A DNA stretch of 64,000 bases from Bacteroidaceae bacterium (GTDB lineage Bacteria; Bacteroidota; Bacteroidia; Bacteroidales; Bacteroidaceae): positions 22,407-86,406 of the forward strand of contig JAFXVN010000027.1 in assembly GCA_017524545.1 (NCBI GenBank). Reading direction: 5' to 3'. A program made the position numbers and the translations under genes. Under the pieces are notes generated by a model. The model did not search any database. It saw only the letters and a list, made by a program, of their open reading frames with translations, and had not been told where the DNA came from. Below are positions 1 through 60,670 of the stretch, one piece after another; the first letter of the stretch is position 1, and each line of letters opens with the position of its first letter.

Positions 1-1818
1 AAGAACCAGGGCGTGGTGGCGGTCTTTCAGAGAGAACGCTTCGACCAGTACAGCAACTTTGCCCGCATCGGCGAGGGCAGTTTGGGAGGCAAGGGACGCG
101 GCCTCGCCTTCATCGACCACCTATTGGGACGGCACACCGACCTCAACGAGCGGGAGGGCGTCACCGTCCGCATCCCCAAGACCGTCGTGCTCTGTACAGA
201 CATCTTCGACGAGTTCATGGACACCAACGACCTCTACCAGACGGCGCTCAGCAGCATCCCCGACGAAGAGATACTCCAGCACTTCCTTCGCGCCCGACTT
301 CCCATGCGGCTCGTCGGCGACATGGAAGCCTTCCTCGATGTCGTCGATGGCCCCATCGCAATCCGCTCCAGCAGCCTTCTCGAGGACTCGCACTACCAGC
401 CGTTCGCCGGTGTCTATAGCACCTACATGATTCCTGCGGCGCACGACCGCTACGAACGCCTCTCCATGCTCTCGGAAGCAATTAAGGCCGTCTATGCCAG
501 TGTCTTCTACCAGAGCAGCAAGGACTACATGACAGCCACCAGCAACGTCATCGACCAGGAGAAGATGGCCGTCATCCTGCAAGAGGTGGTGGGCGAGGAG
601 CACAACGGCAGGTTCTACCCCGTCATCAGCGGTGTGGCTCGCAGCATCAACTACTATCCCATCGGCGACGAGAAAGCCGAGGAGGGAACCGTCTCTTTGG
701 CAATGGGACTTGGCAAGTACATCGTCGATGGCGGCACGAGCCTTCGCGTCTGCCCCGCCCACCCGCATCAGGTCTTGCAGATGAGCGAGATGGAGATTGC
801 CCTTCGCGACACGCAGACGCACTTCCTGGCCTTGAGAGCCCAAAGCTCGGAGGAGGCCGGAAGCATGAGCGTCGATGATGGCTTCAACCTCATCAAAGTG
901 CCTGTTCGCGAAGCGGAGAAAGACGGTACCCTGCAATGGATATGCTCTACCTACGACCCCTTCGACCAATGCATCTACGACGGCTTCTACGAAGGACGTA
1001 ACCGCAAAATCATCTCCTTTGCCGGTGTCCTGCAGAACGACATCTTCCCCTTGGCAGAGCTGATGCGTAAAGCCCTGCAATACGGTCAGGACGAGATGAA
1101 GCGGCCTGTCGAGATAGAGTTTGCCGTCAATCTTCATGCCGACCGCACCGGCGAGTTCTGCCTCCTGCAGATACGTCCGATGGTCGATAACCGTATGGAG
1201 CTCGATGAAGACCTCACCGCTGTTCCCGACGAGGACTGCCTCTTGCGCTCGCACAGTGCCATCGGCCACGGCATCTACACCGACATCCAGGACATCGTCT
1301 ATGTCAAGACTGACGGCTACTCGCCCAGCAACAATCCAGCGATAGCCGAGGAGATAGAGCGCATCAACCGCACATTCCTGGAAGACCCCTCTAAATCTCC
1401 CCTTAAAGGGGAGACTTCCGGTGCAGCGTGCCCCCTCCCTTTAAGGGAGGGCTGGGGTGGGTCCTCTTATTTGCTCATCGGCCCCGGGCGATGGGGCAGC
1501 AGCGACCCCTGGCTGGGCATTCCCGTCAAGTGGCCGCAAATCAGTGCCGCGCAGGTCATCGTGGAGGCAGGACTCGACAGCTTCCAGGTTGACCCGAGCC
1601 AAGGCACCCACTTCTTCCAGAACCTCACCTCCCTTGGCGTCTGCTACCTGACCATCAACGCCTTCCGTGGCGACGGCATCTACCGACAGGAAGTCCTCGC
1701 AGGGCTGCCCGCCGTCCAGGAGACAGAGCACGTCCGCCACGTCCGCTTGCCCCAGCCCCTCACCATCAAAGTCGATGGCAGCAAGAAGGAAGCGGTGGTT
1801 TGTTCAATTCAAAATTGA
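1..1818 (+). CDS. PEP/pyruvate-binding domain protein (5'-partial)
   Basis: The frame is open from the first base, so the gene begins upstream and about 605 codons are visible. The 'GEGSLGGKGRGLAFI' and 'IRSSSLLEDSHYQPFAGVYSTY' stretches are those of the PEP synthase/PPDK N-terminal nucleotide-binding fold. 'IGPGRWGSSDPWLGIPVKW' is a signature of the large Bacteroidetes PEP/pyruvate-binding proteins, where a signalling domain usually precedes this part. Those family members go almost directly from the 'INRxFLE' helix to 'YxLIGPGRWG'. Here about 27 extra residues (from codon 462, 'DPSKSPLKGETS...GWGGS') are encoded by a palindromic repeat at 1384-1463. The last residues and the stop codon fall inside an AT-rich repeat (1803-1836). 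The substrate is unknown. Family assignment is firm, exact role is not. Confidence 0.8.
   Translation, partial: KNQGVVAVFQRERFDQYSNFARIGEGSLGGKGRGLAFIDHLLGRHTDLNEREGVTVRIPKTVVLCTDIFDEFMDTNDLYQTALSSIPDEEILQHFLRARLPMRLVGDMEAFLDVVDGPIAIRSSSLLEDSHYQPFAGVYSTYMIPAAHDRYERLSMLSEAIKAVYASVFYQSSKDYMTATSNVIDQEKMAVILQEVVGEEHNGRFYPVISGVARSINYYPIGDEKAEEGTVSLAMGLGKYIVDGGTSLRVCPAHPHQVLQMSEMEIALRDTQTHFLALRAQSSEEAGSMSVDDGFNLIKVPVREAEKDGTLQWICSTYDPFDQCIYDGFYEGRNRKIISFAGVLQNDIFPLAELMRKALQYGQDEMKRPVEIEFAVNLHADRTGEFCLLQIRPMVDNRMELDEDLTAVPDEDCLLRSHSAIGHGIYTDIQDIVYVKTDGYSPSNNPAIAEEIERINRTFLEDPSKSPLKGETSGAACPLPLREGWGGSSYLLIGPGRWGSSDPWLGIPVKWPQISAAQVIVEAGLDSFQVDPSQGTHFFQNLTSLGVCYLTINAFRGDGIYRQEVLAGLPAVQETEHVRHVRLPQPLTIKVDGSKKEAVVCSIQN
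1384..1463 (+). repeat. Composite palindromic element, in-frame insertion (copy a)
   Basis: It is bounded by GACCC and GGGTC. It contains two palindromic cores, CTCCCCTTAAAGGGGAG and CCCTCCCTTTAAGGGAGGG, in inverted order with GC-rich tails. The first 36 nt are identical to the coding-strand start of the copy in the MFS gene (59977-60053). It is read through in frame without a stop. Confidence 0.85.
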
Positions 1819-6932: not shown

Positions 6933-8024
6933 ATGGAAAATGAAAAGATAAATCTCCAGCAGCTTGCAAAGACATTGGCTCTGGAAAAGGGCATCTCGCA
7001 GAGGAAGGCAGAAACATTTCTCCGTGAGTTCTTCGATGCCATTGTTCAAAATGTGACCATCGACAAGCATGTCAAAGTCAAGGGACTTGGCACATTCAAG
7101 CTCATCGAGGTGCTCGACCGCGAGAGCGTCGATGTCACGACCGGCGAACGCATCGTTATCCCCGGACACTCGAAGCTCTCCTTCACGGCCGATGCTTCGC
7201 TCAAGGACATGGTCAACAAGCCCTTTGCCGACTTCCAAACCGTCATCATCAACGAAGGCACAGACCTAAAAGACATGGAAGGCATTCCTGAAGAGGTGGA
7301 GCCGGAGACAGAAGCGGAGGACTATCTGCCGGAAGAAGCCGCGAGCGATAAGCAGGAAGAGACCATAGAACCAGAGCCTGTGCCAAGTCCAGAGCCTGAA
7401 CCAGAACCGGCTCCTGCGCCTGAACTAGAGCCAGAACCAACTCCAGAGCCTGAATCTGAGCCGAATCCAGAGTCGGAGGTTGCGTCTATGCCTGAGCCGG
7501 ATGAAGAATCGGAGCTGATGCTCGAGGGTGCCGATGTGGAAGACGAGATAAGCCCGTTTGCTCCGGCAAAGGTGCGAGCCATGACCACAGCGGAGAAATG
7601 TGCGCTGACGCTGGGTGTTATCCTGCTTTGCGTGCTCAGTTATTTTGCCGGCTACTATCGTATGTTCGACTCATTGAAGATTGTGCCGCACAAGAAAGAA
7701 GCCCCCAAGAAATCTCCAGCTGAAACACTCGTTGCAAAGAAGGATACGGTGGCGGTTGTTGCTGTCCAGAAGAAGGACACGGTGGCTGTCTCTCCTTCGG
7801 AAGAGCCGAAGACGGCTTTTGACCCAAGCATAAAGTATCGGATAACGGGCACACGGGGGACGTATGTTATGAAGTCGGGCGACTACCTCGCCAAAATTGC
7901 TTTGGAGGAGTATGGCGACAAGGACTTCGCCCGTTATATCATCGCCCACAATAAGTTCCCTAACCCCGACAATGTGCCTGTAGGCCAGGAAGTCAAGCTG
8001 CCCGAACTCGAGGAGGTGAAGTAG
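6933..8024 (+). CDS. HU-domain / LysM membrane-anchored fusion protein
   Basis: The 363-aa protein has three parts. Residues 1-95 form an HU/IHF-like domain ('GISQRKAETFLREFFDAIVQNV', 'KGLGTFKLIEV', 'HSKLSFTADASLKDMVNKPF'). Residues about 110-205 are a Pro/Glu-rich acidic linker with many PEPEPE-like units. A single membrane segment follows ('CALTLGVILLCVLSYFAGYY', near residues 212-235). The C-terminus has a LysM-type module ('YVMKSGDYLAKIALEEYGDKDFARYIIAHN...VPVGQEVKLP'). By topology the HU part would be cytoplasmic and the LysM part periplasmic, so the protein could tether the nucleoid to the cell wall; this is inference. A possible -7 box TAGGTTTG lies at 6910-6917. Confidence 0.85.
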   Translation: MENEKINLQQLAKTLALEKGISQRKAETFLREFFDAIVQNVTIDKHVKVKGLGTFKLIEVLDRESVDVTTGERIVIPGHSKLSFTADASLKDMVNKPFADFQTVIINEGTDLKDMEGIPEEVEPETEAEDYLPEEAASDKQEETIEPEPVPSPEPEPEPAPAPELEPEPTPEPESEPNPESEVASMPEPDEESELMLEGADVEDEISPFAPAKVRAMTTAEKCALTLGVILLCVLSYFAGYYRMFDSLKIVPHKKEAPKKSPAETLVAKKDTVAVVAVQKKDTVAVSPSEEPKTAFDPSIKYRITGTRGTYVMKSGDYLAKIALEEYGDKDFARYIIAHNKFPNPDNVPVGQEVKLPELEEVK

Positions 8025-17646: not shown

Positions 17647-18672
17647 CTACCTCCCTTCGCAGAGCCTGCGGGCGATGTCGTTCAGAGCCAAGCATTGGCC
17701 GCGGCGGATAGTGAGTTGTTCGTTGTGGTGCTCCCACGGAGCAAGGATGAGGAGCTGTCCTCTGGCGCAGGCCTCCATGCGGCTGCCGCCGGGTTTGGCA
17801 AGGTCGGTGAAGCCGTTCTCCTGCAGGTAAACAAGCGGAAGGCCAGCGTCGAAGGCAGCCCGCATGACAGCTTTCTCGCCGGGCGAGATGGCTGGCGAGA
17901 CGAGCACAGCACCCTGCCTTGCAGCGGAGAGGCACTCCTGCACCTTGGCCGCTATCTCCTTTTCGGTGAGGCTGCGCGAGCATTGCACTTGCAAGCGGAA
18001 GGGGCGGTCGAGCAGGAAGCGGTTGCCGATGGCTGAAAAGGTGAAGCCTGCTGCCTGGACGTTGCGCTGCACGCGAAACAGGTCGGGATGCTCGCGTTTC
18101 ATCAAGAGGCGGCGTGGGTTGTCGGTGAGATAGTGCAGCCATGTGTCGAGCTGCCCACTGCGGAGCAGGAGCTTGTCGTTGTAGCCTCGGGCAAAGAGCA
18201 AGCCGTGGCTGCGGTCTTCACCGCTGCGGTCTTGTTTTGTTTGTTGCGTTGGCAACGCAACATACGGAACCAGCTCCCGATAGTGCCGGTTGCAGCTTTG
18301 CTTGAAGCCGCGAAGCGCCATGCCGAGGGGCTTTTCCATCTTTTCCCTCACAAAGAGGATGCCGTGCAAGTGGTCGGGCATCATCTGAAGGGCAATGACT
18401 TCTATCTCAGGATGGTGGAGCGATGTCGCCCACCATTCGTCGGCCACTCGTTGCCCCAGCTCCGAAAGCACGATGTGCGGCTCCTGTGGGCTGCCTTCCT
18501 GTGCCTCGCTTCTGCCCACGACTTGTCCAAAGAGCGGACGGCGGCCCTCGGTCACCATCGTAATCATGTATATCTGGCGGCCTGTGTAGTCGTGCCCCAC
18601 GCAACGGCGAAGCATGGAGGGCTTCTTCTCGCCAGCAAAGGCTCTCTGGGCCTCGAAGGTTTCTTGGGTCAT
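17647..18672 (-). CDS. REP-associated tyrosine transposase-like protein (RAYT, IS200-like)
   Basis: About 341 aa from the ATG at 18672. The frame extends upstream to 18771, but that part is translated from the flanking repeat. The IS200/Y1-type domain covers the N-terminal half: 'YTGRQIYMITMVTEGRRPLFG' and the histidine pair in 'MMPDHLHGILFV' (HUH-like, here H-L-H). Then come 'GMALRGFKQSCNRHYREL' and 'GLLFARGYNDKLLL...LDTWLHYLTDNPRRLL'. A C-terminal part ('AVLVSPAISPGEKAVMRAAFDAGLPLVYL') resembles a Rossmann-like nucleotide-binding fold; that is tentative. A palindrome (18232-18270) lies inside the gene and is read in frame as 'VPYVALPTQQTKQD'. Such proteins process REP palindromes. No IS ends or target duplication were seen. 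Confidence 0.8.
   Translation of the reverse strand: MTQETFEAQRAFAGEKKPSMLRRCVGHDYTGRQIYMITMVTEGRRPLFGQVVGRSEAQEGSPQEPHIVLSELGQRVADEWWATSLHHPEIEVIALQMMPDHLHGILFVREKMEKPLGMALRGFKQSCNRHYRELVPYVALPTQQTKQDRSGEDRSHGLLFARGYNDKLLLRSGQLDTWLHYLTDNPRRLLMKREHPDLFRVQRNVQAAGFTFSAIGNRFLLDRPFRLQVQCSRSLTEKEIAAKVQECLSAARQGAVLVSPAISPGEKAVMRAAFDAGLPLVYLQENGFTDLAKPGGSRMEACARGQLLILAPWEHHNEQLTIRRGQCLALNDIARRLCEGR
18232..18270. repeat. RAYT-associated palindrome inside the RAYT gene
   Basis: TGTTGCGTTG (18242-18251) and CAACGCAACA (18253-18262) form a perfect 10-bp stem around one base. They are flanked by TTGTTTTG on one side and TACGGAAC on the other. The same core and tails occur at 18701-18765. Confidence 0.8.
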
Positions 18673-18700: not shown

Positions 18701-18765
18701 GCTTGTTTTGTGTGTTGCGTTGGCTTGTTTTGTGTGTTGCGTTGCCAACGCAACATACGGAACTG
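18701..18765. repeat. RAYT-associated palindrome with tandem 22-bp repeat (5' flank)
   Basis: Two exact 22-bp direct copies (18701-18722 and 18723-18744), each ending TGTTGCGTTG, are followed by CAACGCAACA and TACGGAAC. The second copy and this tail form the same 10-bp-stem palindrome (18735-18755) as the one within the gene. Confidence 0.8.
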
Positions 18766-19479: not shown

Positions 19480-19521
19480 AGTGATGAAACCAGGCACGCT
19501 TAATTGTCCAACTAAGCGTGC
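19470..19521 (+). terminator. Hairpins at the 3' end of the CatA-like gene
   Basis: CACTTC/GAAGTG brackets the stop codon (19470-19492). It is followed by a 9-bp perfect stem GCACGCTTA/TAAGCGTGC (19494-19502 and 19513-19521). A following T-run is weak, so termination is likely but not certain. Confidence 0.5.
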
Positions 19522-19545
19522 ATAGTTTGCCAACTAGGTTAGCCT
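19490..19545. repeat. CCAGGCACG-family palindrome
   Basis: It starts CCAGGCACGCTTAATT and includes a TAGTTTGCCAACTA stretch. The same words recur in the element at 46335-46427 between other genes. Confidence 0.65.
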
Positions 19546-19568
19546 AATTTATTTTTGTGGCGTTTCGC

Positions 19569-42370: not shown

Positions 42371-43798
42371 ATGAAAAAGCTAATCATTTCCCTCCTTTTG
42401 GCTGTCCCTGCAAGTGCGGTGGCAGCACCTTTCATTCCCGAGCCTGCCAAGAAGCAGGAGGTGGCAGCACAGAGCACCATCAAGGACCTGCGTCCTGAAC
42501 CAGAGAAGCGTCTCTTCCGCAGCGAAGCCATCGAGAAGCAGATTCTCGACCTCAAGCAGAAGCTGACGGCCATCAACCCCAAGCTCTATTGGATGTTCGT
42601 CAACTGCTTCCCCAACACCCTCGACACGACCGTCTGGTACAGCAACGAGAGTGGTGACGATGACACTTTCGTCATCACCGGCGACATCGAAGCCATGTGG
42701 TTGCGCGACAGTGCCGCACAGGTGTGGCCCTACCTGCGCTATGTGAACCAGGACGAACCTTTGCGCCACCTCATCCGTGGGGTCATCCGTCGGCAGCTTG
42801 CCTGCATCCTCATCGACCCGTATGCCAACGCTTTCAACATCAAGGCCATAGAGAACGGTCACTGGATGACAGACAATACCAAGATGAAGAAGGAGCTGCA
42901 CGAGCGCAAGTACGAGATTGACTCGCTCTGCTATCCCCTGCGCCTTGCCTATGCCTACTGGCAGATGACGGGCGACACCAGCATCTTCGACGAGAAGTGG
43001 ATTCAGGCTATCCGCGAGATACTGCACGTCTTCCAAGACCAGCAGAACTGGAACGGCCCCATCACCAACTACCGCTTCACCCGCAAGACTGAGGCATTGC
43101 ACGACACACGCTCCAACCGGGGCTACGGCCATCCCGGCAAGCCCTGCGGACTGATTGCCAGTGCCTTCCGTCCCAGCGACGACAGCACCATCTTCCCTTA
43201 CCTCGTGCCCAGCAACTTCTTTGCAGTAAGCGTGCTGCGCAAGGCTGCCATCATCCTGAACGATGTGAACAAGGAGTACGGTTTGGCAAGTGACTGCCGC
43301 CGCATGGCAACCCAGGTGGAAGAGGCTCTGGAGAAGTATGCTGTCGTGGAGCATCCCAAGTACGGCAAGATTTATGCCTTCGAGGTGGACGGCTATGGAA
43401 GTGCTCTTCTGATGGACGACAGCAACGCGCCCAGCCTGCTCTGCCTGCCCTACCTGACCGACGTCGCCATCGACGATTCCATCTATCAGAACACGCGCCG
43501 CTTCGTCTGGAGCGAGGACAACCCCTACTTCTTCAAGGGTAAGGCTGGCGAAGGCATCGGCGGCCCCCACTGCGGCCTGAACAAGCCTTGGCCCATGAGC
43601 CTTGTGATGAAAGCCTTCACCACTAACGACCGTGCCGAGAAGGAATGGTGCGTAGAGCAAATCCTCAAGACCGACGGCGACACAGGCTTCATGCACGAGT
43701 CCTTTAACAAGGATGACGCAAAGGACTTCACACGCAGCTGGTTTGCTTGGGCCAACACCCTGTTTGGTGAACTCATTGTAGATATGTATGCAGAATAA
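42371..43798 (+). CDS. GH125 exo-alpha-1,6-mannosidase
   Basis: The 475-aa secreted protein has a signal peptide ('MKKLIISLLLAVPASAVAA'). Family hallmarks of GH125 (formerly DUF1237) are 'FVITGDIEAMWLRDSAAQVWPYL', 'DPYANAFN', 'CYPLRLAYAYWQMTGD', 'GLIASAFRPSDDSTIFPYLVPSNFFA' and 'GIGGPHCGLNKPWPMSLVMKAFTT'. These are metal-independent inverting enzymes that remove alpha-1,6 mannose; the acids are expected in 'GDIEAMWLRD' and in the C-terminal half. It overlaps the next gene by 11 nt. Confidence 0.95.
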   Translation: MKKLIISLLLAVPASAVAAPFIPEPAKKQEVAAQSTIKDLRPEPEKRLFRSEAIEKQILDLKQKLTAINPKLYWMFVNCFPNTLDTTVWYSNESGDDDTFVITGDIEAMWLRDSAAQVWPYLRYVNQDEPLRHLIRGVIRRQLACILIDPYANAFNIKAIENGHWMTDNTKMKKELHERKYEIDSLCYPLRLAYAYWQMTGDTSIFDEKWIQAIREILHVFQDQQNWNGPITNYRFTRKTEALHDTRSNRGYGHPGKPCGLIASAFRPSDDSTIFPYLVPSNFFAVSVLRKAAIILNDVNKEYGLASDCRRMATQVEEALEKYAVVEHPKYGKIYAFEVDGYGSALLMDDSNAPSLLCLPYLTDVAIDDSIYQNTRRFVWSEDNPYFFKGKAGEGIGGPHCGLNKPWPMSLVMKAFTTNDRAEKEWCVEQILKTDGDTGFMHESFNKDDAKDFTRSWFAWANTLFGELIVDMYAE

Positions 43799-46316
43799 GA
43801 AACGGACGATATTGCAGGGAGCCCTCATAGTGGGGCTCTTTGCTTTTATGGCTGCCTGCACTGGCAGCCAGACGAAGGAGGAGCGTGCAGCACTGGATTT
43901 CCTCTACGAGAACATGCCGCTGCCCGACAGTGTGGATTACCCGCGCGAGTTCTGGGAGGCTAACGTCGCCGTCACGGTGCGTGCGCGGCACGAGATGCCT
44001 TGGGGCGAGAAGGTGCCGGGCAGGGAGTGGCGGCACTTCGTGCTGCCGCTGCGCGTCAACAACGAAGACCTCGACTCCTTCCGCATCGTCTATTACGACG
44101 AACTGAAGGAGCGCGTCAAAGACAAGTCGATGTACAATGCCGTGCTCGAGGTGAACCACTGGTGCCACGAGCATGTCTGCTACCAGCCCAGCGACAGCCG
44201 CACCTCTTCGCCCATGAACACGCTGCGCTCCGCCATCGGTCGCTGCGGCGAGGAGAGCACCCTCACGGTCTCTGCCCTCCGCGCCGTCGGCATTCCTGCC
44301 CGACAGGTCTATACGCCGCGCTGGGCGCATACCGACGACAACCATGCCTGGGTGGAAGCCTGGGTGGATGGCAAGTGGTACTTCCTCGGGGCCTGCGAGC
44401 CGGAGCCGGTGCTGAACCTCGGCTGGTTCAACGAGTCGGCCACCCGAGCCATGCTCATGCACACAAAGGTCTTCGGCGACTATTGCGGGCCGGAGGAAGT
44501 GGTGAACAAGACGGCTTGCTACACGGAGATAAACGTCACGAAGAACTATGCCGACGTTGCCACCGTCATCGTGACGGTGCTCGACCAGGACAGCCTGCCC
44601 GTCGGGGGAGCAACGGTCGATTACCGCCTCTACAACTACGCCGAGTTCTACCCCCTCGCTTCCAAGCAGAGTGATGACAAGGGGCAGTCCTCCCTGACAT
44701 GCGGCAAGGGCGACCTCGTCATTTGGGCAAGCAAGGACGGCAAGTTCGGCTTCAAGAAGGTGAGCGTCGGCAAGAATTCCCTTGCCTCTGTCGTTCTCGA
44801 CAAGGACAGCACCTTTACCGGCTCCTTCGAGCTTGACCTGATGCCGCCGGTAGCTAAGGACAACAAGCCTGTGCCTACAACCGAGGCCGTGCGAGCCAAC
44901 CGCAAGCGACTTGCCAGCGAGGACAGCATTCGCATCGCCTATATGAAGCAGGCCTTCTGCCCAGACGCGGAGCCCGACAGCCCCGAGGCGTTGGCACGCG
45001 CCAACTGGCAGACCATCCAGACTTTCAAGCAGATTTGTCCGGACAAAAAGCTGGCCGACGATATCCTCGCCACGCTCTCGAAGAAGGACTATAGGGATGT
45101 GACGCTGGAGGTATTGCTTGATGTAGCCTCCCCCGTCCCCTCCGAAGGAGGGGGGGACGGCAGCGGCTTGGCTCCCTCTCCTTTGGAGAGGGATGGGGAG
45201 AGGCTTCTCTCCCCGCGCGTTGCCAACGAGCGCTTGACACCTTGTCGCGGTGTGCTCCGAGAGTACTTCAAGGGCATGACTGCCGAGGAACTGCAGCAGT
45301 GGGTGGCGGACAGCATTACGGTAGATGATACGCGCAACCCGCAGCACCTCTGCATGAGTCCGCTTGGGGTGCTCCGGCACAGGACGTGCGATGCCCACAG
45401 CCGCGACATCTTCCTTGTCTCAGCGGCCCGCAGCATAGGCATCCCCGCCCGCATCGACGAGGTGACGGGCAAAGTGATAGCCTCCCCCAACCTGCACCCT
45501 GCCCTCACAGGAGGGGAGAACAACTGCGACTTGACCCCCTCTCCTTTGGAGGGGGATGGGGTGAGGCTCCGCCTCTCTTATTCCGACCAGAAGTTCAAGG
45601 AGAACCCCACCTACTATTCGCACTTCACCCTGTCGCGCATCGATGGCGGACGGCCGCAGTTGCAGGAGTTCCCGGAAGGCACTACCTGGAAAGAAACCTT
45701 TGCCGACGGCGTGCAGGTCGATGCCGGACAGTACATGCTCCTGAGCGGCACACGTCTGGCAAATGGCGGTGTGTGGGCGAACCTGGAGATTTTTGGGGTT
45801 GGTGCACAGCAGCAACAGACGGAACAGTTGCACCTGCGTGCCAACGAAGACCGCCTGCATGTCATCGGCAACTTCGACTGCGAGCTGGGCTTCACAAATG
45901 CAAGGGGCGTTCACAAGCCCATACTGGAAACCACAGGCCGAGGCTTCTACATGATAGCCCTCATACGCAGTGGTCACGAGCCAAGCGCACACCTCCTGCA
46001 CGACATGGAGGCCGTCAACATACACATCTCCCAGTGGTCGCAATGCTACCTCATGCTCTTCCCGAGCCAGGAGGATTATGACAACTTCGACCGCAAGGAG
46101 TACGACGACCTGCCCAGCAACGTCCTCTTCGGCGTTGCCGACAAGCAGACCATCGAGGCCATGCACATTCCGGAGCTTACGCGAGGCAATGAAGAGCTGC
46201 CCATCCTCATGCTGTGCGACACCTTCAACCGCGTCGTGTGGTTCCGCCAAGGCTACAACATCGGGCTGGCAGACCAGCTGATGGATGCCTTGAGGCAGAT
46301 TATCTTGGGAGAATAG
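43788..46316 (+). CDS. Transglutaminase-core lipoprotein with in-frame palindrome insertions
   Basis: The 842-aa protein has a lipoprotein signal ('IVGLFAFMAACTGS', lipobox MAAC). A transglutaminase-like domain follows: 'IGRCGEESTLTVSALRAVGIPARQVY' (Cys near residue 153) and 'TDDNHAWVEAWVDGKWYFLGACEPEP' (His and Asp). A carboxypeptidase-regulatory-like beta domain follows ('VLDQDSLPVGGATVDYRLYN'), then a second, weaker transglutaminase-like half ('SRDIFLVSAARSIGIPARIDEVTGKV'). Such proteins act as peptidases or peptide cross-linkers, often beside glycoside hydrolases. Two palindromic elements (45125-45207, 45479-45571) are translated in frame. Start overlaps GH125 by 11 nt, so the three genes form one operon, and it may help open glycoproteins for the mannosidases. 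Confidence 0.85.
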   Translation: MQNKKRTILQGALIVGLFAFMAACTGSQTKEERAALDFLYENMPLPDSVDYPREFWEANVAVTVRARHEMPWGEKVPGREWRHFVLPLRVNNEDLDSFRIVYYDELKERVKDKSMYNAVLEVNHWCHEHVCYQPSDSRTSSPMNTLRSAIGRCGEESTLTVSALRAVGIPARQVYTPRWAHTDDNHAWVEAWVDGKWYFLGACEPEPVLNLGWFNESATRAMLMHTKVFGDYCGPEEVVNKTACYTEINVTKNYADVATVIVTVLDQDSLPVGGATVDYRLYNYAEFYPLASKQSDDKGQSSLTCGKGDLVIWASKDGKFGFKKVSVGKNSLASVVLDKDSTFTGSFELDLMPPVAKDNKPVPTTEAVRANRKRLASEDSIRIAYMKQAFCPDAEPDSPEALARANWQTIQTFKQICPDKKLADDILATLSKKDYRDVTLEVLLDVASPVPSEGGGDGSGLAPSPLERDGERLLSPRVANERLTPCRGVLREYFKGMTAEELQQWVADSITVDDTRNPQHLCMSPLGVLRHRTCDAHSRDIFLVSAARSIGIPARIDEVTGKVIASPNLHPALTGGENNCDLTPSPLEGDGVRLRLSYSDQKFKENPTYYSHFTLSRIDGGRPQLQEFPEGTTWKETFADGVQVDAGQYMLLSGTRLANGGVWANLEIFGVGAQQQQTEQLHLRANEDRLHVIGNFDCELGFTNARGVHKPILETTGRGFYMIALIRSGHEPSAHLLHDMEAVNIHISQWSQCYLMLFPSQEDYDNFDRKEYDDLPSNVLFGVADKQTIEAMHIPELTRGNEELPILMLCDTFNRVVWFRQGYNIGLADQLMDALRQIILGE
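45125..45207 (+). repeat. Composite GC-run palindrome inside the transglutaminase gene (copy d)
   Basis: Two inverted halves: a CCCCTCCGAAGGAGGGG core (left) and a CCCTCTCCTTTGGAGAGGG core (right), each with an 'AGCCTCCCC'-type tail. Encodes 'SPVPSEGGGDGSGLAPSPLE' and continues in frame. Confidence 0.75.
45479..45571 (+). repeat. Second composite palindrome in the same gene (copy e)
   Basis: Begins with AGCCTCCCCCAACC and ends with CCCCCTCTCCTTTGGAGGGGG plus a GATGGGGTGAGGCTCC tail. The left half is degraded. In frame: 'SPNLHPALTGGENNCDLTPS' and 'PLEGDG'. Confidence 0.65.
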
Positions 46317-46334
46317 CTTTGATGCATTATAAAA

Positions 46335-46427
46335 CCAGGCACGCCTAATCCGACAATTAGACGTGCCTGGTTTGCTATTTAGACGTGCCTAATCGGGCAA
46401 TTAGGCGTGCTTAGTTTGGCAACTACC
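46335..46427. repeat. CCAGGCACG-family palindromes between convergent genes
   Basis: A 15-bp stem with one mismatch pairs CCAGGCACGCCTAAT with ATTAGACGTGCCTGG (46335-46370). It is followed by a GCCTAAT/ATTAGGC palindrome and TAGTTTGGCAACTA. The same words occur at 19490. The position between the transglutaminase gene (plus) and the flippase (minus) suits a bidirectional terminator. Confidence 0.7.
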
Positions 46428-47855
46428 TTAGGCCTGTTGTGTTTTCCTCAGTTCCTTCTTGTAAATAAGAGCTGCAAAGGCGAGGATGAGCACCGAGCTG
46501 GTGCCGACGTATTGCCACTCGGGCCACTCCGACGGAATGAGCGTCATGACGTAATAGAACGCGGCTGCGATGATGGTGTAGAACGCTATCGAGCGAAGCG
46601 GGTAGGGGATGGGATAGAGCCGCTGCCCGACGAAATAGCTCAGGAGCATTGCCGTGCCGTAGCCTGCCACACCGCCCCAGGCGCAAGCCATATAGCTGTA
46701 GTGTGGAATGCCCCACAGGTTGACGGCAAAGAGCATGACGCATCCCGCCAGAGAGAACAGCGCGCCGTAGATGGTCTTGTCAATCAGCTTGTACCAGAAG
46801 GAGAGGTTGAAGTAGATGCCCATCATAATCTCTGCCACCATCACAATGGGTATGACGCGCAATCCTTCCCAATAGTCGGCTCCAATCATGTGGCGAATGA
46901 CAGGCAGCCAGCCCATCACGCCGAGGAATGCCAGAAGGGTGAAGATGATGAAATACTTCATCCCGAGGGCATAGTACTCGTTCTTGTCGGCATCTTTCGA
47001 CTTGGCAAAGACGATGGGTTCGTAGGCATATCGGAAAGCCTGGGTTATCATCGCCATAATCATCGCCACTTTGACGCAGCTGCCATAAACGCCCAGCTCG
47101 ACGTTCGCCTGCGCCTCGTCGGGATAGACCTTCGGGAAGAGTATCTTGTCGGCCACTTGATTGAGGATGCCTGTCACGCCCAGCACGAGTATCGGCCACG
47201 AGTAGGAGAGCATCCTTCGAAGCAGTTTCCCGTCGAAGTGCCAATGAATCTTTATCAGGTCGGGAATGAAGAAGAAGGTGATGAAGCCTGTGCAGAGCAG
47301 GTTAATGAAAAAGACATAGAAGACACTTGTCTTGCCGAGAAGGACGAAGTAGATGAGGTTGAGGGCGATGTTGAGGAAGATGAAGAGCATCTTCAGCGAC
47401 ATGAAACGTATGGGACGATGCTGGAAACGCAGGTAGCAGAAAGGCAGTGCCTGCAGGGCATCCAATGCAACCACGGAAGCCATCATCAGCAGGTAATCGG
47501 GGTGTTCGGCATAGCCGAGATAGCCGGATATGGGTGTGATGAAGCCGAAGACAAGCAGGATGAAGATGGCCGTGAGGCTGCCCACCATGGCAAAGCCGGT
47601 GGAGAAGACGGTGTCGGGACATTCGCGCTCGTCATTGGCGAAGCGGAAGAGCGTCGTCTCCATGCCGAAGGTCAGGATGACGAAGAACAAAGCGGTGTAC
47701 GCATACATGTTCGTGCTCACACCATAGTCGCCCGAAGCCTTGGGCATGTAGTGCGTGTAGAGCGGCACGAGCAAGTAGTTGAGGAAGCGCCCGACGATGC
47801 TCGACAGTCCGTAGATGACGGTATCCTTTGCCAGAGCACTTAATTTAGAGTTCAT
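46428..47855 (-). CDS. Polysaccharide/lipopolysaccharide flippase (Wzx/MOP family)
   Basis: A 475-aa membrane protein with about 12-14 hydrophobic segments. 'LAKDTVIYGLSSIVGRFLNYLLVPLYTHYMPKASGDYGV' is the typical start of Bacteroidetes O-antigen/polysaccharide exporters of the MOP superfamily. Such proteins flip lipid-linked sugars across the inner membrane. No glycosyltransferases are adjacent; rfbA, 2.2 kb away, is the only other surface-sugar gene. The ATG lies inside a GTTCATA heptamer array. A -7 box is at 47888-47895. Confidence 0.85.
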   Translation of the reverse strand: MNSKLSALAKDTVIYGLSSIVGRFLNYLLVPLYTHYMPKASGDYGVSTNMYAYTALFFVILTFGMETTLFRFANDERECPDTVFSTGFAMVGSLTAIFILLVFGFITPISGYLGYAEHPDYLLMMASVVALDALQALPFCYLRFQHRPIRFMSLKMLFIFLNIALNLIYFVLLGKTSVFYVFFINLLCTGFITFFFIPDLIKIHWHFDGKLLRRMLSYSWPILVLGVTGILNQVADKILFPKVYPDEAQANVELGVYGSCVKVAMIMAMITQAFRYAYEPIVFAKSKDADKNEYYALGMKYFIIFTLLAFLGVMGWLPVIRHMIGADYWEGLRVIPIVMVAEIMMGIYFNLSFWYKLIDKTIYGALFSLAGCVMLFAVNLWGIPHYSYMACAWGGVAGYGTAMLLSYFVGQRLYPIPYPLRSIAFYTIIAAAFYYVMTLIPSEWPEWQYVGTSSVLILAFAALIYKKELRKTQQA

Positions 47856-57143: not shown

Positions 57144-57145
57144 CA

Positions 57146-57261
57146 GCCTCCCCCTGCCCCTCCAAAGGAGGGGTGAAACGCACGAAATACATGATATGAA
57201 GAAATATGAAACAGGAAGTGAGTCTCTGTTCACCCCTCCTTTGGAGAGGGTGGGGGAGACT
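57146..57261. repeat. Inverted pair of GC-run palindromes around the argB start (copy f)
   Basis: Left unit 57146-57178 (core CCCCTCCAAAGGAGGGG) and right unit 57228-57261 (core CCCCTCCTTTGGAGAGGG) are near reverse complements of one another, separated by about 50 nt holding the argB ATG. Confidence 0.75.
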
Positions 57262-59422: not shown

Positions 59423-60607
59423 TTACGCCTTCTTACCCTTGAGCCAGAAGCCGAGCAGGTAGAGGATGCCGACGGTCATAACGAGGACGGCGCCGACCTG
59501 ACCCATTGCGTCGCTGGCAAAGCCCATGAGGAGCGGGAAGATGGTGCCGCCGAAGATGCCCATGATGAGGAGTCCGCTGACTTCGTTCTTCTTCTCTGGG
59601 ACAGCTTGCATGGCTCTCGCAAAGACGATGCTGAAAGGATTGCCGTTGCCGTAGCCCATCAGTGCCACGCTTGCATAAATGACAGCAGTACTTTCGCCAA
59701 AGATGAGGCCGAAGACGGCTGCCACCATCATCAATACACTCACGAGTAGGAAAGTCCAGTCCTTCAAGTAGCTCATGATGAAGCTGCCGCTAAAGCTGCC
59801 CGCTGCCTTGGCTATAAAGTAGATAGTGCAGACAATGGCGGCATCATCAAGCAACATGCCCGTGCGCTCCATCAGAATCTTTGGAGCCGTGACGCTTGTC
59901 CCCACATCAATGCCGACGTGGCAGATGATGGCGAGGAAGCAGAAGAGAATGAAAGGGTTGCCCAGCAAAGAGAAAGACCCTACCCAACCTCCCCTTAAAG
60001 GGGAGGAGCCTGTGCAGGAAGTCTCCCCTTTAAGGGGAGATTTAGAGGGGTCTTTGATTTTCGTTCCGAAGAGCAGCAGCGTTGCCAACACGCCCACACC
60101 TAAATAAATAGGATAGAGCACGCGCCAGCCAAGCCCGAAGGCATTTGCGGTCGCGCCCCAAGAGGCGATGATGGGGGCAAGGAACGATGCAATGCTCTTG
60201 ATGAACTGCCCGAAGGTCAGGGTGCTGGCAGATGCTCCGCCTTTCATCACACTATCGACCAGCGGATTGAGCGAGGTCTGCATGATGGCGTTGCCTATTC
60301 CCAAGAGGGAGAAGGACAGGAGCAACAAGGTGAAGTCGAGGGTGAACATTGGCACCACCATTGCTGCCAGCGTCATCACAAGGCTCAGGAGTACTGTGTT
60401 CTTGCGGCCAATCTTGTTCATCAGCAAGCTTGTAGGAATGCTGAAGATGAGGAACCACAGGAACACAAGCGAGGGAAGAGTGTTCGCCATCGAGTCGCTC
60501 AACCCTAAATCTTTTTGTACATAGTTGCTTGCTATGCCCACCATATCGACAAAACCCATCGCGAAGAAGCATAGCATGACGGGAACGAGCTTTTTATTAA
60601 AGTTCAT
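59423..60607 (-). CDS. Sugar MFS transporter (FucP-like) with in-frame palindrome insertion
   Basis: A 394-aa protein with twelve predicted membrane segments. 'MLCFFAMGFVDMVGIASNYVQKDLGLSD', 'PTSLLMNKIGRKNTVLLSL', 'GIGNAIMQTSLNPLVDSV' and 'FIKSIASFLAPIIASWG' match the glucose/galactose/fucose branch. A 26-residue insert ('DPSKSPLKGETS...GWVGS', near residues 186-211) sits in the central loop between segments 6 and 7, encoded by the repeat at 59977-60053. It is last in the isomerase-ROK-MFS operon. The ATG is part of a GTTCATA heptamer array. Confidence 0.87.
   Translation of the reverse strand: MNFNKKLVPVMLCFFAMGFVDMVGIASNYVQKDLGLSDSMANTLPSLVFLWFLIFSIPTSLLMNKIGRKNTVLLSLVMTLAAMVVPMFTLDFTLLLLSFSLLGIGNAIMQTSLNPLVDSVMKGGASASTLTFGQFIKSIASFLAPIIASWGATANAFGLGWRVLYPIYLGVGVLATLLLFGTKIKDPSKSPLKGETSCTGSSPLRGGWVGSFSLLGNPFILFCFLAIICHVGIDVGTSVTAPKILMERTGMLLDDAAIVCTIYFIAKAAGSFSGSFIMSYLKDWTFLLVSVLMMVAAVFGLIFGESTAVIYASVALMGYGNGNPFSIVFARAMQAVPEKKNEVSGLLIMGIFGGTIFPLLMGFASDAMGQVGAVLVMTVGILYLLGFWLKGKKA
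59977..60053 (-). repeat. Composite palindromic element, in-frame insertion (copy b)
   Basis: Bounded by GACCC and GGGTC (extended AAAGACCC/GGGTCTTT). Cores CTCCCCTTAAAGGGGAG and CTCCCCTTTAAGGGGAG. On the coding strand the first 36 nt are identical to copy a at 1384 and are read in the same frame. Confidence 0.85.
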
Positions 60608-60637
60608 AGTTCATAGTTTAGAGTTCATAGTTATTGG
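60602..60637. repeat. GTTCATA heptamer array at the MFS start
   Basis: GTTCATA, GTTCATA, GTTTAGA, GTTCATA and GTTATTG. The MFS ATG (60605-60607, minus) is inside the first unit. Confidence 0.7.
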
Positions 60638-60638
60638 C

Positions 60639-60670
60639 ACTCCCCCAAAGGGGGAGCGGGGAGGGGCTTC
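60639..60670. repeat. GC-run palindrome with tail (copy h)
   Basis: CTCCCCCAAAGGGGGAG followed by CGGGGAGGGGCTTC, ending at the stop codon of the ROK gene. Confidence 0.65.

Follow-up and report, generated by a model that had tools for sequence, protein, structure and literature searches.

Palindromic elements resembling REP dimers lie mostly in frame within conserved genes of uncultured Bacteroidales

We have studied a family of short palindromic elements, here called F1, that lie within protein-coding genes of uncultured Bacteroidales. The reading we favor, with a probability of roughly 0.8, is that these are dimers of REP-like hairpins that have spread in one genus of the order, where they persist mainly in frame in permissive loops. 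Coding palindromic repeats are known mainly from Rickettsia and Wolbachia, and their range would thereby be extended from intracellular alphaproteobacteria to gut Bacteroidales. Intragenic REP dimers and the Rickettsia palindromic elements (RPEs) are already known; what is notable here is the scale, the host group and the frame-locked design of the dimers.

Two F1 composites are present in the window, the stretch of 64,000 nucleotides that was analyzed. The first (1384..1463, + strand; 76.9 and 79.2 bits on the two strands) comprises an arm of type A, a linker and an inverted arm of type B. Its 5′ arm (1384..1414, +) has a GACC tag and a palindrome around CTCCCCTTAAAGGGGAG, and its 3′ arm (1433..1463, −) has the palindrome CCCTCCCTTTAAGGGAGGG and a GGTC end, an assignment whose basis includes C54:23839-23857. 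The host gene (13-1818, open at the start of the window) encodes a PEP/pyruvate-binding protein with the domain PF01326 (PPDK_N), and the insert is in frame. The second composite (59976..60052, − strand) comprises arm A, a linker and an inverted arm D, and lies in frame in the gene of an MFS transporter (59423-60607, −; PF07690, MFS_1). The preliminary description of this DNA had located the first element exactly and the second one base away, at 59977-60053. Direct reading of the sequences bears out its statement that the two elements are identical over their first 36 nt, in coding orientation and in one common reading frame. The insert peptides, DPSKSPLKGETSGAACPLPLREGWGGS (27 residues, PPDK_N gene) and DPSKSPLKGETSCTGSSPLRGGWVGS (26 residues, MFS gene), both follow the pattern DPSKSPLKGETS..PLR.GW.GS that it had proposed. 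As it had also claimed, neither insert introduces a stop, the hosts remaining open over 605 codons (PPDK_N, cut by the start of the window) and 395 codons (MFS).

F1 is a dispersed family. A search of the genome to which the window belongs (3.6 Mb in 85 contigs) with a 35-nt core, allowing up to three mismatches, gave 25 matches against none for the reversed control, ruling out chance as the origin of the shared sequence. Two palindromes were also sought with at most two mismatches: in this genome CTCCCCTTWAAGGGGAG gave 54 matches and CCCTCCCTTWAAGGGAGGG gave 98 (controls 0 and 1). Two exact arm patterns had no match in viral contigs. A composite consists of two hairpin arms, inverted relative to each other, with outer ends GACC...GGTC and a variable linker between them; we have named the arm types A to E. 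Element length is mostly 66-99 nt, with 8-9 nt separating tag and stem. The stem was tested as 7 pairs with a 5-nt loop, and 8 pairs with a 3-nt loop are possible. All of 43 aligned copies carry GACC and GGTC at their ends, the search pattern having demanded G[AG]CC and GG[TC]C, and standard pairs occupy 99.2% of the cells in the two 7-bp stems and four outer pairs. The matched base changes in the stems are partly due to the arm subfamilies. A purine precedes 99% of 260 element ends, which either belongs to the element or reflects a target preference. In some F1 arms (L056, L060, L067 and L073) the sequence continues as a shared AATTGCCC...GCAATTGGGGAGCG...GGAGGCCCGAAGGGTTT segment, which looks like another repeat nested in the arm.

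The placement of these elements was examined by a census based on patterns, a covariance model built from the 43 copies, and selected stretches of the genome. At least 81 distinct elements were found (149 rows); scoring covered 150 of the 1312 initial candidates, so this number is a floor, biased to short spacers, and the census overlooked intergenic copies (118-140 nt) that came to light afterwards. Each element was assigned a frame class from the codon scores of its 180-nt flanks (trained on the genes of the window) and the presence of a spanning open frame. By this rule 63 of the 81 are strictly in frame within genes, one of them doubtful (C22:49476, with a stop one codon upstream). Of the remaining 18, 12 are spanned by an open frame (200 codons or more in all, 20 or more to either side of the element), many of them close to the end of a gene; the other 6 have no such frame. 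When the same elements were inserted at random and judged by the same rule, 226/1500 were strictly in frame; random positions without insertion fell in a gene interior in 824/1500 cases. The in-frame placement within genes is thus well above random. Purging of frame-breaking copies alone predicts 226/(226+676), or about 25%, strictly in frame, so that part of the genic excess is unaccounted for, and bias in the census may be a partial cause. Among 48 weaker matches outside the 81 (22 bits or more, in 477 kb of loci from the same genome plus the window; those below 22 bits were left unclassed), 27 are strictly in frame, 16 are other and 5 have no spanning frame.

The length of the elements is likewise constrained. 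A pattern search blind to frame, with the end requirement given above, found 46 composites in 438,357 bases of the genome, with lengths modulo 3 of zero in 31, two in 14 and one in a single case. We examined length and orientation in 112 distinct in-frame combinations of site and arm pair, taken from this genome and its relatives. The length modulo 3 is fixed for each of the commoner arm pairs: it is zero for B-C (37/37), A-C (16/16), C-E (18/18) and C-D (9/9), and two for 10/12 of the A-B pairs, the rarer pairs being mixed. Orientation is also preferred, the C arm coming first in 40/43 pairs with A, D or E and in 26/37 pairs with B; A-B pairs have no bias (7 to 5). Among GACC composites, a length of 3n was found for 97/123 inside long frames versus 8/20 elsewhere (p 0.0007), and several copies outside long frames have stops in their spacers. 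On average 2.2 of the 6 frames are open per element in the 112 combinations. Palindromes of pyrimidines followed by purines around TTTAA leave two of three frames open and encode loop-like residues, and are thus easily tolerated. The idea that the repeat is constrained to stay translatable, put forward from two copies, is therefore upheld by the frame excess, the fixed lengths and the orientation bias, and the genic copies tabulated here do show a bias in frame and orientation.

The same arms are shared by 72 host frames. Sixty of these host proteins were scanned with NCBIfam, and 42 match at 1e-25 or better while 18 do not. The hosts of strictly in-frame elements include LigA, LeuRS, AlaRS, UvrA, MreC, PurB, MetH and QueA (the last two with two elements each), together with FolC, IspH, Asd, AroE, SufS, ThrC, RlmD, RsmE and PrmA; RadA, TilS, PyrC and RicT contain in-frame copies that fall short of the strict criterion. 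The surface position of the inserts was judged by alignment to solved homologs. For PurB the insert corresponds to a clean gap in the solved structure, those of IspH and UvrA fall in gaps or between aligned blocks, and those of LigA and LeuRS lengthen short loops; the AlaRS alignment stops short of the insert. In UvrA the F1 element sits immediately ahead of STIFIFDEPTTGLH, which we take to be the Walker B region.

The occupied sites were compared with those of orthologous proteins. At the MFS site, one of 29 orthologs (L250) has the element, while the loop is 18 residues long in 12 and 14 residues in 11; single palindromic arms occur in four (L259, L261, L262 and L263), and the site is also occupied in the relatives G345 and G354. 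At the PPDK_N site the element peptide is found in none of 29 orthologs, 14 of which have 3-6 residues there (the others 1 to 40); other types of palindrome are present in five (L280-L283 and L287), and another F1 element lies near this site in G354. These lengths bear on the proposal that a short loop of the host had been replaced. The F1 element of UvrA is missing at 21/21 orthologous loci, 20 having 4 residues in its place and one having 9. We also surveyed five loops, three in UvrA and two in LigA, that were picked independently of the element scores in the relatives; the survey revealed short loops, other palindromic families, AT-rich simple repeats and degenerate copies. The one readable loop whose length is not a multiple of three (41 nt) belongs to G310, in which the LigA gene is split. 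The simple AT-rich or tandem repeats that fill these UvrA and LigA loops in relatives (L426, L441, L443, L445, L447, L448, L455 and L458) include AATTCAAAATTC, GAGTTAAGAGTGAAG, AACAATGTTCAATGTTC and GGAGCAAGGAGCAAGG, and are in frame.

Some elements occupying the same site have a common origin. There are 28 same-site groups, two of them within one genome, and rates were computed on the 27 same-site pairs that passed the flank filters. Linker identity is 0.913 for same-site copies (17 pairs) against 0.635 for different sites (312 pairs); same-site linkers are far more alike, and hence the copies descend from one insertion. The same element is present in 28 same-site pairs, and six have different arm pairs, reflecting either exchange or re-insertion. 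Thirteen pairs with diverged flanks, partly dependent in that two triples are included, have identities of 842/858 in the arms, 127/150 in the linkers and 769/1300 at third codon positions of the flanks. The arm identity points to constraint or homogenization, a suggestion qualified by the use of the best-scoring copies in the relatives and by the existence of degenerate copies.

Among 101 genomes in the genus, including that of the window, 28 contain the core pattern, with no control match among the matches listed. A 17-mer is present in 5 of 301 genomes of the family (again including our own), four of the five in the genus, and one family genome that lacks the 17-mer has a control match. Eight element-rich relatives contain at least 119 distinct elements among their best-scoring ones; 101 of these 119 have a length of zero modulo 3 and 18 a length of two, with no case of one. 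The frame was assessed for 93 of the 119: strict in-frame placement holds for 74 and fails for 16, and 3 have no spanning frame. The same pattern of frame and length is found in eight other species of the genus. For the C-arm pattern, at least 80 named loci are labeled Prevotellaceae, Bacteroidaceae, Bacteroidales or Prevotella; all are from uncultured bins among the matches listed, and the animal, where named among them, is a ruminant. UBA4336 is placed in Prevotellaceae in the NCBI taxonomy.

Might the hairpin instead be kept as a signal in DNA or RNA, for protein binding, mRNA processing, uptake or segregation, with the proteins merely accommodating it in frame? Some proteomes accommodate DNA uptake sequences in this way. 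The near identity of the arms in the 13 partly dependent pairs, set against their flanks, is what such a signal would give, and RNA folding of both window elements is strong (z −3.3 and −5.5). Nevertheless we consider this unlikely. The conserved copies in the relatives are the best-scoring ones, and the degenerate copies in UvrA and LigA weaken the case for DNA-level conservation of the arms; moreover the core pattern occurs in little more than a quarter of the genomes of the genus, and the window has no Rfam match at the gathering score.

Two further explanations have been rejected. That the peptides are ancestral or slippage-derived loops, and no inserted element, draws on the variable loop length at these sites in many species, and is very improbable given that the same arms recur in 72 host frames. 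Nor are element and peptide confined to homologous proteins, as seen from the 25 core matches and from the two unrelated hosts in the window. Since most orthologs lack the peptide at both window sites, or contain other repeats in the same loop, with a single element among the MFS orthologs, none among those of PPDK_N and the G354 element lying nearby, the loop is not ancestral. An artefact of metagenome assembly seems less probable still. Uncultured bins are, by title, the source of the named C-arm loci among the matches listed, the copies at C61:67 and C68:67 look like one duplicated contig end, and two pairs in G166 (C40 and C58) resemble duplicated contig ends; against this, copies at the same site are found repeatedly in genomes of separate records, within genes that are otherwise conserved.

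If F1 elements are indeed REP-like dimers, they would have spread by copying of a DNA element, perhaps with a single-strand (Y1/HUH) transposase acting in trans, the mechanism proposed for GTAG REPs. Frame-breaking copies would be lost through selection, the surviving inserts would be translated as flexible hydrophilic loops rich in P, S, K, G and E, and the old host loop might be trimmed later. There are four matches to Y1_Tnp in the genome, three of them above the cut-off, in frames of 335-408 codons. Arms flank none of these matches; an element is found some 440 nt upstream of one, and two are close to contig ends. No clean target duplication was seen at the orthologous sites, where the loops of the relatives are too diverged to define one. 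In the earlier proposal of a mobile repeat under selection for translatability, the second part is well founded in frame, length and orientation, while mobility is suggested by the dispersal only.

The resemblance to the protein-coding palindromic elements of Rickettsia, noted at the outset, holds for the family as a whole, with in-frame sites in conserved genes here and in the eight other species. Like RPEs and the Wolbachia palindromic elements (WPEs), which lie in frame inside conserved genes (available part of PMC4224334), F1 elements are palindromic repeats in frame within conserved genes (63/81 strict, hosts identified by NCBIfam). As with RPE-4, RPE-6 and RPE-7 (available part of PMC3767692), different elements occur at one site in orthologs. 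In contrast to RPEs, whose length is given as 105-146 bp in the part of PMC2229807 available to us, F1 elements are mostly 66-99 bp, have two separate arms and belong to another phylum. The best reading is that they work like RPEs and probably form a separate family, different in architecture, length and phylum.

F1 also resembles the GTAG and CGTC REPs. According to the available part of PMC3733652, REP dimers encode 20-30 residues inside genes of O. terrae, R. conorii, Thauera and other bacteria, with UvrA, DNA ligase and tRNA synthetases among the hosts; F1 shares the short hairpins, the inverted dimers, the coding length and similar hosts. REPs are mostly intergenic, whereas F1 lies mostly in genes, has the outer tags GACC/GGTC with 8-9 nt from tag to stem, and is fixed in length modulo 3. 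All 43 aligned copies have GACC/GGTC where RAYT-associated REPs have GTAG, and none of the four Y1_Tnp matches is an arm-flanked RAYT gene. CGTC REPs have CGTC (or the variants TGTC or CCTC) where F1 has GGTC; they form head-to-head dimers with a stem of 8-9 bp and a loop of 4-5 nt, compared with 7 tested pairs and a 5-nt loop in the inverted dimers of F1. Both lack a linked transposase, and CGTC REPs are reported from Bacteroidetes in the same part of PMC3733652. MITEs (ERIC, RU and the Coxiella QMITE) are, in the partial accounts available, also small non-autonomous repeats able to fuse in frame with genes; no terminal inverted repeat with a clean target duplication was recognized in F1. Our literature search, largely without subscription papers, found no account for Prevotellaceae or Bacteroidales, in keeping with the earlier impression that such elements are new for this group; the available part of PMC3733652 places intragenic REP dimers in other bacteria, and further background is given in the accessible parts of PMC10969869 and PMC6006769.

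A broader proposal is tentative, and we would sooner doubt it than adopt it: a gut Bacteroidales genus may remodel its core proteome with interchangeable coding hairpins, arm pairs or whole families being swapped at the same loops in sister species, the arms held at the DNA level while linkers drift, with frame deciding which dimers persist. If this were true, a REP system would have protein loops as its principal habitat, and not as an accident. Copy number and sister species suffice to test the entry, change and exit of repeats in essential proteins; UvrA, LigA, MetH and QueA, with at least two elements each, offer comparisons for the origin of new loops, the cost of mRNA hairpins and REP-like mobility. 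In annotation, such inserts may wrongly be called as domain features or attributed to misassembly.

Three further palindromic families behave like F1, lying in frame in genes: F2 (GCCTC...GAGGC), F3 (GCCCCC...GGGGGC) and F4 (C-rich, with a CGAGG loop). UvrA carries F1, F3 and F4. F2 occurs once in LigA and twice in the transglutaminase-like gene of the window (43788-46316), as an in-frame composite at 45126..45204 (+, 34.3 bits; peptide ASPVPSEGGGDGSGLAPSPLERDGERL) and a second at 45480..45567 (+, 24.4 bits; peptide ASPNLHPALTGGENNCDLTPSPLEGDGVRL). What appears to be the same site as the latter holds F1 in G166 and G304, as matched by eye (ARIDEVTGKV... / IPARIDEVTGKV...). A candidate F2-like arm pair with a longer spacer lies at 57145..57261 (no strand assigned; 19 bits, E 0.0024), at the likely start of an AA_kinase gene, and a single F3-like palindromic arm, CTCCCCCAAAGGGGGAGCGGGGAGGGGC, gives a weak match at 60588-60668, upstream of and outside the MFS gene.

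The window contains other repeats. A dispersed repeat with AGGCACGC(C/T)TAAT units, unrelated in sequence to the arms, is found at 19484-19548, 46329-46393 and 46373-46437. A direct repeat of 40 nt with a TTGCGTTGGCAACGCAA palindrome, 95% identical between its copies, occurs at 18231-18270 and 18724-18763, and short tandem GAACCAGAGCCT-like units at 7368-7487 would be Glu-Pro rich if read in one frame.
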